The position numbers were made by a program, and so were the translations under genes. Below, one piece after another: positions 60,577-64,000 of a stretch of DNA of 64,000 nt. How positions within the stretch are numbered: the first letter of the stretch is position 1; every line of letters begins with the position of its first letter. Location: contig JAGBDN010000082.1 in NCBI GenBank assembly GCA_017937485.1, positions 1-64,000 on the forward strand. The letters are read 5' to 3'. Below the pieces are notes generated by a model that had not been told where the DNA came from, ran no database searches, and was given only the letters and a program-made list of their open reading frames with translations. This stretch comes from Thermoguttaceae bacterium. Its GTDB lineage: Bacteria; Planctomycetota; Planctomycetia; Pirellulales; Thermoguttaceae.

Positions 60577-61692
60577 TTACTTCCCGCCGCTTTCGCGCCA
60601 ATCGAGATAATCCGCGAGCGCGGAACGCCAATCGGGCAAGCGATAAACGCCGTCAAGCTCGCCGTATTTCACCGATCTTAACGCGGTAAACGCCGACTGC
60701 GGCGCCGAAAAGCCGTATTCTTTCGACGAAATGCCGGCGATTTGAACGTTCGTCAAGCCGCGACGCTCAGCGATGAACTCCGCGACGTCGCGAGCCGTCC
60801 CTCGCGAACCGCCGCTCAAGTGATAAAGCCCGGTCGCGCCGGTTCGAACGAGCGTTTTCAGCGCGCAAAGAACGTCGACCGCCCAAGTCGGCTCGACGAT
60901 TTTATCGTTCAGCGCGGAGAGTCGCCGCGTCCGCTTGAACGCTTTTAAGAGCGATTCGACCAGATTCCCGGACGAATATTCCGTCGTTTCGCCAAAAATC
61001 GACGACGTTCGCAAAATCAACGATTTCGGCGCTTCCGCCGCGATTCGCTCGCTTTCGAGCTTCGTTTTCGCGTACACGCTCGCCGGATTCGGCTTGTCTA
61101 ACTCGGAAAACGCCGGCGCTTCCGGCGCGATCGTTAAAATCGGGCGCGCGTTCCCCCATTCGTCGAAAACGACTTCTTGGGAAGCGGCGGAATTTGGGAG
61201 AATTAGCGAACTCGGCGCCGTCCGGTTTTCGACGTTTCCACCTTCGCTATTTTGCCCGTTCTCTCCGTTTTGAAGCGATTTCGCCCCTTCGTTCGGCTCG
61301 GGAAGTCGAGTTAAACGGTCGCGATAAAAGATTTCGCCGCACCCGAACTGAACAAGGAGCGAACCGGTTCGACGAACGGCCTCTTTCAGGTTGGCGACGG
61401 CGTTCGCGTGTACGTTTCGGGCGGTGTTCGCTCGCGTTTCGAGCCAATCGATCAGGTTGACGCCCGCCGCGTTGACGACGACGTCCGGCTTAAAATCGCT
61501 CAACGTTTCGACGACAAAAAGGCGCGAACAAAGGTCGAAGTCGGGCAAATTCAACGGAATAACGACGTCGTTCGATTCGACGACCGGGCCGCCGACGTTC
61601 GCCGCGATTCGCCGTTCGACCCGCGGGTCGTTCCAATAATTCGCGATCGCGCTCCCCAGCGTTCCCATCGCGCCGACGACGACGATTTTCAT
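60577..61692 (-). CDS. RmlD-like NAD(P)-dependent sugar reductase/epimerase
   Basis: 371 residues of the extended short-chain dehydrogenase class: IVVVGAMGTLGSAIANYW (Rossmann start), DVVVNAAGVNLIDWLETRAN, YAKTKLESERI with the catalytic Tyr/Lys (YxxxK), LILRTSSIFGE, TWAVDVLCALKTLVRTGATG and LYHLSGG. It matches dTDP-4-dehydrorhamnose reductase best, but a Asn/Gly/Glu-rich insert of about 60 residues follows FGCGEIFY. No other rhamnose genes are nearby, so the substrate is uncertain. ATG 61692 follows AGGAAGG; upstream residues look spurious. Confidence 0.75.
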   Translation of the reverse strand: MKIVVVGAMGTLGSAIANYWNDPRVERRIAANVGGPVVESNDVVIPLNLPDFDLCSRLFVVETLSDFKPDVVVNAAGVNLIDWLETRANTARNVHANAVANLKEAVRRTGSLLVQFGCGEIFYRDRLTRLPEPNEGAKSLQNGENGQNSEGGNVENRTAPSSLILPNSAASQEVVFDEWGNARPILTIAPEAPAFSELDKPNPASVYAKTKLESERIAAEAPKSLILRTSSIFGETTEYSSGNLVESLLKAFKRTRRLSALNDKIVEPTWAVDVLCALKTLVRTGATGLYHLSGGSRGTARDVAEFIAERRGLTNVQIAGISSKEYGFSAPQSAFTALRSVKYGELDGVYRLPDWRSALADYLDWRESGGK

Positions 61693-61928: not shown

Positions 61929-62498
61929 TTAAATATAATCGGCGAACAATTCCTTTTCCGGACGCGGCAAAACGACCGCCGACGCCAACAGCCCGCGATC
62001 TTTAATCCCTTCGACCGCCGCGTCGACCGCCGCTTGAACGTTCGCGAGCGAGCCGGTCATCAAAAGGAGGCCCTTCCCGCCCATCGCCATCGCCAAACTG
62101 AGCCGGAAGAGCGTTACGTCGGCGGCTTTCGCGGCGACGTCGGCGGCGACGACCGCGGAAACGGCGCTGAACGTCTCGACGACGCCGAGCGCGCCGACCG
62201 TCTCGGGCCCCAAAACGACCGACTGCGTCATCGCCGGGAAAACCGCCGGATGCACGTTCGCGACGGTCAACGAGTCGATCGTCGACGTTCCGCCGACCCG
62301 TTTCGCCGTTTCCATCGCCGCCTCGACGTCGCCGATCGCGCCGGAAAAAACGATCAAATACTTGCCCGAACAGATCGTTCGAGCGATCAAGAGCGTCGTC
62401 GACGCGGCTTTCATCAGCGCGTCTTGAACTTGATACCCGACGCCGACGCTCGACAATTCGATCGCCCCGACGGCGGCGTTATTCGCTTTCCCAGCCAT
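61929..62498 (-). CDS. Tandem-domain bacterial microcompartment shell protein (BMC-T)
   Basis: 189 residues with two BMC domains. Domain 1 starts AVGAIELSSVGVGYQVQDAL and contains CSGKYLIVFSGAIGDVEAA; domain 2 starts TVGALGVVETFSAVSAVVAA and contains GGKGLLLMTGSLANVQAAVD. Two BMC domains make a pseudohexameric trimer, of the PduT/EutL-like class; CSGKY resembles the pore region of PduT-type proteins that hold a cluster, but a cluster is not shown. No BMC-H, BMC-P or encapsulated enzyme is in the window. ATG 62498 follows AGGGAACG. Confidence 0.85.
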   Translation of the reverse strand: MAGKANNAAVGAIELSSVGVGYQVQDALMKAASTTLLIARTICSGKYLIVFSGAIGDVEAAMETAKRVGGTSTIDSLTVANVHPAVFPAMTQSVVLGPETVGALGVVETFSAVSAVVAADVAAKAADVTLFRLSLAMAMGGKGLLLMTGSLANVQAAVDAAVEGIKDRGLLASAVVLPRPEKELFADYI

Positions 62499-62896
62499 TA
62501 TCGTTCCCTAAAACTTTCGTTTCAACGTTATTCGAAGCGTTTTTTACTCGTCGCAGAACGCGCCGTTTGCGCAAATTCGCCGACTTCGCTAAATCCTCAA
62601 AATTTTCGACGCTCGGTCGAACGCCGAAAATTCGACGCTTTCATTTTACGCCGAAAATCGTTCGCCGTCAAGACGCCGCGCCCTTTGCGCCCCTTCGAAA
62701 GCGGTTCGCGCCCGCCTTGCAACCCTTACATTCCGCGCAACCGGCGTTTTCGTTCTCCCGACTTCCGGTCGCGCCCCCTCTCCCTCGACTTATTTTGGGG
62801 CGATTTTTAGGAAAATTTTAGGCGCGTTTTCGCAAAATTTTGTCCTTAATATATTATTAAGGGCAAATTAAGAGCGCGCGCCGCTTCGAAATCGCG
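62499..62896. other. Gene-free region upstream of the BMC gene
   Basis: 398 bp. It holds the perfect inverted repeat CCTTAATA-TAT-TATTAAGG at 62844-62862, next to TTTGCCCTTA on the minus strand (as at 8301-8310). Otherwise no gene or clear promoter. Confidence 0.55.
62844..62862. repeat. AT-rich perfect inverted repeat
   Basis: CCTTAATA (62844-62851), spacer TAT, TATTAAGG (62855-62862). It lies 34 bp past the nucleotidyltransferase stop and 346 bp upstream of the BMC-T start; function not clear. Confidence 0.6.
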
Positions 62897-63541
62897 TCAA
62901 GGCGACCATTCGAGAACGCCGTCGACCGGCCGCTCGCGCCGCCAAGCGACAAACGCCGCCCAATCGCGGACGCCGCCTTCCAAAACCGCCCGATAAATTT
63001 CGATTCCGGCGATCTTCTCGGCGTCCGGCGCCGCCTCTTTAATCGTTAAAATCGCTCGTTTCGTCTCCGGCGTCAACGCGGCGGCGATTCGGTCGGCGAC
63101 GTCTTCGAAGTAACCGTCGTATTTCGAGTTCCGCTCGATATGAATCAAGTCGAGCGCCCATTCGAGCGCCGTTTCCTCCGGTTCGCTCGGGTCGACGAGC
63201 CCAACGCGCCATTGAACGCAACGCTCCTCGGTCGCGAGAAAGTTTGCAAACTCGACCCGTCGAACGCCCGGCCGACTTGCCAACGCGCCGACCGCTCGGA
63301 ACGACTCCGCGACGTCGACCTGATCGGAGTAAATATGCAAGTCGACGTCGCGACGGTTCGGCGTCGTCAGCCCCATTCGCAACGAGCCGACGAGATTGAC
63401 CGTCGCGCCAAGTTTTTCCCAAATTGCGACGACGCCGCAACGCTCCAACAAACGCCGCGCCGCCTCCGCCGCTTTTTCGCTCCGCTCGAACAACGCCGTC
63501 GTTTCATTTTGCGCGTTCGCCGCAATTTCCGCGTTTTCCAT
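62897..63541 (-). CDS. Nucleotidyltransferase-fold protein
   Basis: 214 residues. NLVGSLRMGLTTPNRRDVDL is a Pol-beta-type nucleotidyltransferase signature (GS followed about 11 residues later by DxD), continuing HIYSD. Then WRVGLVDPSEPEETALEWAL with possible third acidic residues, LDLIHIERNSKYDGYFED, and a helical C-terminus. The acceptor is unknown. Of two starts, ATG 63541 is chosen because GGAGGGG is 3-4 nt upstream; ATG 63553 has weaker AGAGGA. It has a near-consensus promoter with a palindrome, so it is likely strongly but controllably expressed. Confidence 0.65.
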   Translation of the reverse strand: MENAEIAANAQNETTALFERSEKAAEAARRLLERCGVVAIWEKLGATVNLVGSLRMGLTTPNRRDVDLHIYSDQVDVAESFRAVGALASRPGVRRVEFANFLATEERCVQWRVGLVDPSEPEETALEWALDLIHIERNSKYDGYFEDVADRIAAALTPETKRAILTIKEAAPDAEKIAGIEIYRAVLEGGVRDWAAFVAWRRERPVDGVLEWSP

Positions 63542-64000
63542 TATCCCCTCCATTCCTCTAACCGCTTTCTTCGACCGACTTTGACGATTTTATCGTTTCT
63601 TAAAGAATATTTTCAAACAAAAACATTAAAATTCAAAAATACCGCGTTTTTCCGCGAAGTTTGCCTTCTTTTTTCGTCAAAAACGCTCATTATAAGCGAC
63701 GCTTATATTACGTCAAGAGTCGACGAAAGATTTTTTTGAAAAGACGATTATCGTCAATATTTTCAAAAGAAGAGAAAACAAAACGGCGGAAAAGAGAACG
63801 AATTGCGCCGACGCCGCGCCCGACGCAAGAAGCCTCGGACGCGACGACGGCGGCAAGCGGTCGTTTCGGCGTTTCGCCGCTTGCCTATTTTGCGCCGGTT
63901 CGCTCAAAAGAGCGTTTTATTTAACCGACGCGCTTCGTCTAAAGCGCCGATTCCATCAATCGACGTCAAACTTTGCCGCTATTAAAGAATTTAACGGCGC
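63542..64000. other. Upstream region of the nucleotidyltransferase gene, to the window end
   Basis: 459 bp. Contains the palindromic promoter at 63689-63716 and AT-rich DNA around it. No further gene is seen to the end of the window. Confidence 0.55.
63689..63716 (-). promoter_or_regulatory. Near-consensus promoter with overlapping perfect palindrome
   Basis: Minus strand TTGACG at 63716-63711, 16-nt spacer, TATAAT at 63694-63689: 11 of 12 consensus bases. A perfect inverted repeat TATAAGCG-A-CGCTTATA at 63691-63707 covers the -10 and spacer, as an operator would. Start would be near 63682, leaving a leader of about 140 nt. Confidence 0.75.

Follow-up and report, generated by a model that had tools for sequence, protein, structure and literature searches.

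A satellite PduT-like shell gene and a separate PduS gene as a candidate electron port of a PVM-type microcompartment in Thermoguttaceae

Why does a tandem BMC shell gene (BMC-T) stand alone in a Thermoguttaceae genome, and what could its product do there? The gene lies in a window of 64,000 nucleotides (i.e., the whole stretch of DNA analysed, C39:1-64000) on a contig of 75,641 bp; the source assembly comprises 4.37 Mb in 116 contigs and is 91% complete. The original prediction described a tandem BMC gene with no other shell gene nearby, flanked by a nucleotidyltransferase and a sugar reductase, and considered two possibilities: a satellite shell gene, or the fold serving some unrelated purpose.

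The open reading frame starts with ATG and encodes a tandem BMC-domain protein of 189 aa. Profile searches placed two PF00936 domains in it, at 113.8 bits (cut-off 24.5), and the AlphaFold model (mean pLDDT 89.8) has as its top Foldseek matches 3nwg, a Desulfitobacterium microcompartment protein, and 3n79 and 3pac, both of which are PduT (E 1e-21 to 2e-21). Two PF00936 domains in a single chain together with the subunit fold place the protein among standard BMC-T, for which a trimeric (pseudohexameric) arrangement within a shell is predicted. Sequence alignment to PDB 3pac (E 4.6e-36) pairs TICSGK in our protein with TICPGK in PduT and brings C43 onto the [4Fe-4S] cysteine of PduT; the motif CSGKY fits the C-P/S/A-G-K/R/S-Y/F pattern given in PMC6325248. 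C43 is accordingly placed as the pore cysteine of a PduT-type BMC-T, with cluster ligation predicted. Because the score against the NCBIfam PduT equivalog TIGR02526 (113.6 bits) stays under the cut-off of 250.3, we label the protein PduT-like, not PduT.

BMC-T is present in 80 of the 101 sampled Thermoguttaceae genomes at 48-98% identity, including three near relatives at 96-98%, and this conservation excludes a chance ORF and upholds the predicted tandem gene. The nearest relatives that carry a name (98% identity) are two Thermoguttaceae MAGs from goat and water-deer rectum. No family copy has an internal stop, those of G208 and G229 being fragments, and 29 positions are at least 97% conserved in the family alignment. 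Contamination or misassembly was ruled out, the three near relatives sharing the same RmlD-like neighbour as well as the high identity.

A search of the whole genome with PF00936 returned four domain hits, corresponding to both halves of BMC-T on C39 and two single-domain genes on contig C44, while all three hits to PF03319 fall on C44. Neither profile finds a further shell gene on C39, whether within the window or along the 11.6 kb that follow it. The isolation noted in the original prediction thus extends over the entire 75.6-kb contig, and no full BMC locus follows just beyond position 64,000. Downstream of BMC-T, the sugar reductase was recovered as an RmlD-like gene of the dTDP-4-dehydrorhamnose reductase family (Table 1). 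Of the 34 further loci examined for comparison, only 11 show it next to BMC-T, and its position is therefore probably a matter of local synteny; we do not take it as part of the shell system, and a function tied to it was rejected on the same count. Upstream, the nucleotidyltransferase label could not be confirmed, as the product gave no match at E<=1e-3 in Pfam or NCBIfam; homologues of this gene were recovered from just three of those 34 loci, belonging to the three nearest relatives. The intervening gap holds a promoter-like site that would allow separate transcription of BMC-T. Its pattern, itself copied from the site, occurs once in the window against a mean of 0.06 in shuffles, and a second promoter-like match (62525-62497) overlaps the BMC-T start codon.

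Table 1. Features around the BMC-T gene, in window coordinates.
Feature	Position	Strand	Basis
RmlD-like (dTDP-4-dehydrorhamnose reductase family), downstream of BMC-T	60577..61692	-	PF04321; below rmlD cut-off
BMC-T, PduT-like, C43	61929..62498	-	PF00936 x2, 3pac alignment, AlphaFold, Foldseek
Promoter-like site TTGACG-17-TAAAAT, in the 398-bp gap upstream of BMC-T	62643..62671	-	consensus match only
218-aa protein, upstream of BMC-T	62897..63553	-	no Pfam/NCBIfam match

The remaining shell genes are found on C44, in a row encoding PduL, a YbjQ-like protein, two BMC-H, acetate kinase (AckA), BMC-P, AldDH, BMC-P, an RpiB-like protein, BMC-P, class II aldolase and an M24 peptidase, i.e., two BMC-H, three BMC-P and no BMC-T. 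Judged by its sequence this is the PVM (fucose/rhamnose) gene set; its order recurs in one set of family and outside loci compared, and its gene content in another. We call it PVM-type, a variant, because the lactate/malate dehydrogenase is absent; the best match in the genome, at 33% identity, lies on C106. A DeoR-family regulator is usual beside PVM loci and present in many family loci; tblastn gave no hit for one beside the C44 locus (L006/L007) or beside L156, L221-L224 and L230, the loci without it belonging to the window genus and some relatives.

Since the genome's PVM-type locus lacks a BMC-T and sits on another contig, the gene in the window is a satellite shell gene. The original prediction had offered this alternative and had suggested looking for BMC-H and BMC-P genes elsewhere and for a fucose/rhamnose locus without BMC-T, and the C44 locus provides both. 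No BMC-associated genes lie immediately beside BMC-T, in agreement with the description of satellites in Axen 2014 (PMC4207490); the same source, citing PVM work, reports that functional metabolosomes without BMC-T are known. In the single-contig relative G011, BMC-T maps to 3.354 Mb, about 2.0 Mb from the PVM locus, which lies near 1.316 Mb. In two other relatives the PVM gene run closes with the aldolase and BMC-T comes directly after it, starting 15 bp (G260) or 34 bp (G223) further on, and in G216 the aldolase is followed by pduS and then BMC-T. A PVM-type locus in the same genome, together with BMC-T abutting the PVM aldolase in relatives, argues strongly against the fold being put to an unrelated use. 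Neither BMC-P nor BMC-T nor PduS was detected in G218, G243, G256 and G268, the four genomes sampled from genus g129, and the organelle seems to have been lost there as a whole.

The window genome also carries, on contig C113, a solitary gene for a PduS-like protein of 444 aa. Its domains are, in order, PF01512 (Complex1_51K), PF10531 (SLBB), PF13534 (Fer4_17) and PF13375 (RnfC_N); two tetracysteine motifs (residues 251-261 and 295-306) are spaced as in Citrobacter freundii PduS, a GxGxxG is present, and all eight motif cysteines are conserved in 44 of 44 aligned sequences. Domain order, both four-cysteine motifs and GxGxxG assign the protein to PduS, and NADH oxidation with FMN and two [4Fe-4S] clusters is predicted for it. 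An identity as RnfC of an Rnf complex was rejected: RnfC_N is C-terminal (375-439) and there is no second RnfC_N protein, a genome-wide PF13375 search (assembly 91% complete) having returned this one alone. The protein scores just under the rnfC cut-off (232.2 against 245.95 bits), and no rnf genes were recognised beside it in the C113 gene list, judged by eye. The pduS/BMC-T pair is thus split in this genome between C113 and C39, each gene lying more than 13 kb from the contig ends. The Fe-S cysteine, the split-off PduS partner and the absent dehydrogenase are points that did not form part of the original prediction.

We compared the distribution of both genes in 198 genomes sampled from the class and 101 sampled from the family Thermoguttaceae. 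In the class sample, the genomes with a close PduS (E<1e-150) are exactly the six that have a full-length BMC-T (E<1e-60). Some match to the BMC-T query occurs in 152 of the 198 genomes, and among the matches listed those outside the six are short; five further genomes give weaker, RnfC-like matches to the PduS query (E 1e-30 to 1e-41). In the family sample, 72 genomes have PduS and BMC-T (G213 being counted from a match seen only in the upstream-neighbour comparison), 8 have BMC-T only, 7 PduS only and 14 neither, where absence of PduS means no match at E<=1e-60 in assemblies that are 76-90% complete. Five of the eight genomes with BMC-T and no detected PduS belong to the window's own genus, and nine family genomes have BMC-P with neither BMC-T nor PduS. 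Within the family pduS is the commonest immediate neighbour of BMC-T: it lies upstream on the same strand and stretch in 44 of the 80 BMC-T genomes, at 3.7 kb in G240 and within 600 bp in the other 43, whose loci would therefore count as satellite-like. PduS is encoded elsewhere in the other 28 genomes with both genes, including the window genome, and contig breaks may account for the separation in some of them.

The presence of PduS also follows the pore cysteine. Outside the family, all 67 loci with the cysteine have an adjacent pduS and none of the 19 without it does, although many of these 86 genomes are related and not independent, and 18 of the 19 cysteine-less loci extend at most about 1.5 kb per side, so that no PduS there means not adjacent. 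The 86 loci comprise 59 (L097 having been dropped as Thermoguttaceae) and 27 examined from a phylum search in which 75 of 392 genomes matched at E<=1e-15. The cysteine is kept in 77 of 80 readable BMC-T sequences (79 from the family, where G208 is unreadable, plus G115), and within the family it is lost in 3 of the 8 genomes without PduS versus 0 of 71 with PduS. Serine replaces it in G217, G267 and G275, which form a single clade and have no detected PduS; read from the tree, the joint loss of cysteine and PduS is one event, not three. The stem of this clade measures 0.72 versus a median end branch of 0.14. Two genomes of the window genus, G291 and G293, keep the cysteine with no detected PduS, and the G293 branch reaches 1.04. 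An argument from branch length is nevertheless weak, because G216 is also on a long branch (0.71) despite having PduS and the cysteine. Pairing of pduS with pduT in GRM loci (PMC6325248) and interaction of PduS with PduT in Pdu (PMC2982820) have been described, and the correspondence between cysteine and PduS extends this published pairing.

Several observations accompany this pattern. The BMC-T proteins of L192 (G217), L193 (G267), L177 (G275) and L207 (G293) carry C-terminal tails of about 45-60 aa that are rich in charged residues (234-248 aa in total); all four genomes are without detected PduS, and three of the four proteins lack the Fe-S cysteine. A pduS-BMC-T pair from another planctomycete family (L074/L166, genome G115) is nested within the Thermoguttaceae tree, with a PVM locus and dehydrogenase on another contig, and reflects either transfer or contamination (estimate 6%). 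In L095 and L096, from Aminicenantes and Acidobacteriota MAGs, the pair shares one stretch with aldolase, AldDH, AckA, PduL and BMC-P genes. Their BMC-T is a weakly placed sister of the family BMC-T (support 93/44), and this lineage is a possible source of the module.

The second difference concerns NAD+ regeneration, for which PMC4207490 predicts an enzyme of the lactate/malate dehydrogenase type in PVM. The dehydrogenase of outside PVM loci belongs to PF00056/PF02866, as shown for two of them. In 21 of 21 outside-family loci it follows the aldolase in the same orientation, with a gap of 34-402 bp in 19 loci and wider gaps of 627 and 939 bp in the other two; all 21, G115 included, were chosen from the BMC-P list and have the dehydrogenase. 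Across the class sample a close copy is found in 147 of 153 BMC-P-positive non-family genomes (G178, G130 and G175 by partial hits), whereas none of the 40 BMC-P-negative genomes has one, nor does any of the 5 family genomes, BMC-P counts not separating PVM from other BMC types where loci are unread. In the family sample only 3 of 101 genomes have it, all from genus g140, and the remaining matches are 31-41% identical. None was seen in the 21 family loci read, of which L161 ends at the aldolase and L223 about 0.6 kb past it; for these two genomes the absence comes from the genome-wide search. Five more family loci (L286, L287, L294, L297, L298) are also without it, L286 lacking the aldolase too. 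Besides the 21 family loci, 26 others were read for dehydrogenase and BMC-T, i.e., the 21 above and 5 chosen because the search had found none.

In three relatives, the slot of the dehydrogenase after the aldolase is occupied by BMC-T (G260, G223) or by pduS and BMC-T (G216). Loss of the dehydrogenase and gain of PduS/BMC-T are not strictly exchanged. Six non-family class genomes have BMC-P with neither dehydrogenase nor PduS/BMC-T (G079, G098, G122, G070, G147, G183); for five of them the PVM loci themselves were read and show the same absence (L281-L285, from G079, G122, G098, G070 and G183), G147 being assessed by search only. Conversely, the genes coexist in G229 (g140) and G115, which have all three, and in G250 (g140), which has the dehydrogenase and PduS. 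The swap amounts in essence to a single event on a single branch, which makes the large counts non-independent.

We consider it likely that BMC-T and PduS together act as an electron port that re-oxidises NADH in the PVM organelle of a low-oxygen lineage. The BMC-T trimer would carry a [4Fe-4S] cluster in its central pore, held by C43, and would be incorporated into the shell of the PVM-type microcompartment whose genes lie on another contig of this genome. Inside the shell, class II aldolase would release lactaldehyde, from which AldDH would produce lactyl-CoA and NADH. Most PVM organelles are thought to re-oxidise this NADH through the locus-encoded lactate/malate dehydrogenase, a gene that this lineage is without. 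Here PduS, a putative flavoprotein with FMN and two [4Fe-4S] clusters, would oxidise NADH at the luminal side of the shell and hand the electrons to the BMC-T cluster, from which they would leave for a cytosolic acceptor, and the two proteins would have taken over from the dehydrogenase.

Enzymes of the PduS type, with FMN and two [4Fe-4S] clusters, oxidise NADH and bind PduT (PMC2982820). Potentials reported for PduS and PduT rise from the PduS flavin (-262 or -150 mV) to PduT (+99 mV) (PMC6325248, PMC2982820), and a redox role for the [4Fe-4S] shell protein PduT is put forward as a hypothesis in PMC6325248 and PMC8547011. The clusters of PduS and PduT are described as O2-sensitive (PMC6325248), which would fit a low-oxygen family. 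Against the electron port, the distant dehydrogenase homologue on C106 should be noted. NADH could be recycled by another alcohol or lactate dehydrogenase, and PduS could serve another task, by analogy with corrin reduction in Pdu.

BMC-T might instead be a satellite shell protein that tunes permeability to substrates or cofactors, any cluster being structural or incidental while an ordinary dehydrogenase recycles NADH. Altered permeability is the general role that Sutter 2021 (PMC8217296) proposes for satellite shell genes, and the eight family genomes that retain BMC-T without detected PduS, three of them without the cysteine, indicate that the protein can persist as a shell tile. Such a role is nonetheless unlikely: cysteine and adjacent pduS agree in all 86 outside loci, and no gene is found immediately beside BMC-T in the family more often than pduS. 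The cysteine-less stem and the G293 branch, both far above the median, look as if constraint had changed upon PduS loss and point weakly in the same direction.

The flow of electrons might also be reversed, with PduS and BMC-T feeding electrons into the organelle, e.g., to a corrinoid or radical enzyme. C. freundii PduS is a corrin reductase (PMC2982820), and PduS of GRM loci has been suggested to supply electrons for radical-enzyme activation (PMC6325248). The genes scanned in the C44 locus, however, include no diol dehydratase, B12 adenosyltransferase or glycyl radical enzyme, and an internal electron sink is therefore not visible in the main locus; the reported potentials favour outward flow as well, and we regard inward flow as quite improbable. 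Still less probable is that BMC-T is a fossil, either a functionless leftover of horizontal acquisition or a fold put to a use unrelated to the microcompartment. The gene does stand alone, in a local context common only to near relatives and with PduS split away. Conservation largely refutes this idea, given the retention of the gene in most of the family, free of internal stops and with many highly conserved positions; moreover, BMC-T is missing from the four g129 genomes that are also without BMC-P, and in G260 and G223 it stands right behind the PVM aldolase, as it does in G216 with pduS in between.

All components of the proposed electron port are of known kinds. BMC-T resembles PduT of the Citrobacter and Salmonella Pdu systems in its tandem BMC fold (3n79 and 3pac at E ~2e-21, 36-37% identity) and in the aligned pore cysteine, and the C113 flavoprotein has all four Pfam domains of Pdu PduS as well as its two tetracysteine motifs. 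Unlike in Pdu, no B12-dependent diol dehydratase is found among the scanned genes of the host locus, BMC-T remains under the PduT equivalog cut-off, and BMC-T and pduS lie outside the BMC locus and, in the window genome, apart from each other. The gene pair and its cysteine motif also recall PduS/PduT of GRM systems, GRM5 having the pair in 57 of 57 loci (PMC6325248) and occurring, as does the PVM-type locus here, with a class II aldolase (PMC4207490); in contrast to GRM, no glycyl radical enzyme was seen in the C44 locus and the pair is a satellite. With PVM of Planctomycetes and Verrucomicrobia (PMC4207490) the C44 locus has in common aldolase, AldDH, PduL, AckA, two BMC-H and three BMC-P, and it differs from them in the absent lactate/malate dehydrogenase and the added satellite Fe-S-type BMC-T and PduS. 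A further parallel is lmo1185, the PduT-like BMC-T of Listeria eut, which is hypothesised to be a redox carrier when the alcohol branch regenerates too little NAD+ (PMC8547011); unlike our gene, lmo1185 lies within the eut cluster, serves another substrate and has its electrons linked to extracellular electron transfer (PMC8547011).

Our literature search on PduS/PduT or BMC-T in planctomycetes found no description of this module in the texts consulted, and the supplementary tables of Sutter 2021 may list the satellite. As far as this search goes, what is new is a satellite and, here, split module of PduS and Fe-S-type BMC-T serving a PVM-type organelle. Within the same scope, two further points are new: the module goes together with a lost PVM dehydrogenase, and a single clade is without both PduS and the pore cysteine. 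The module may lie at a great distance from the organelle locus and may even be split, and surveys limited to BMC loci will therefore miss it.

Related organelles with the same aldolase/AldDH/PduL/AckA core thus carry the dehydrogenase, the PduS/Fe-S pair, both (G229, G115), neither, or a shell protein without the cysteine, and such variants provide a comparative series for asking whether a shell cluster exports electrons. Tentatively, and at slightly below even confidence, we propose that the Thermoguttaceae, as a whole low-oxygen family, rebuilt a sugar organelle by dropping its dehydrogenase and sending electrons through an Fe-S cluster in the shell, and that one clade of the window genus later lost both PduS and the pore cysteine. 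If this is true, the serine-type clade would be a natural knock-out that separates the role of the shell protein as a wire from its role as a tile.
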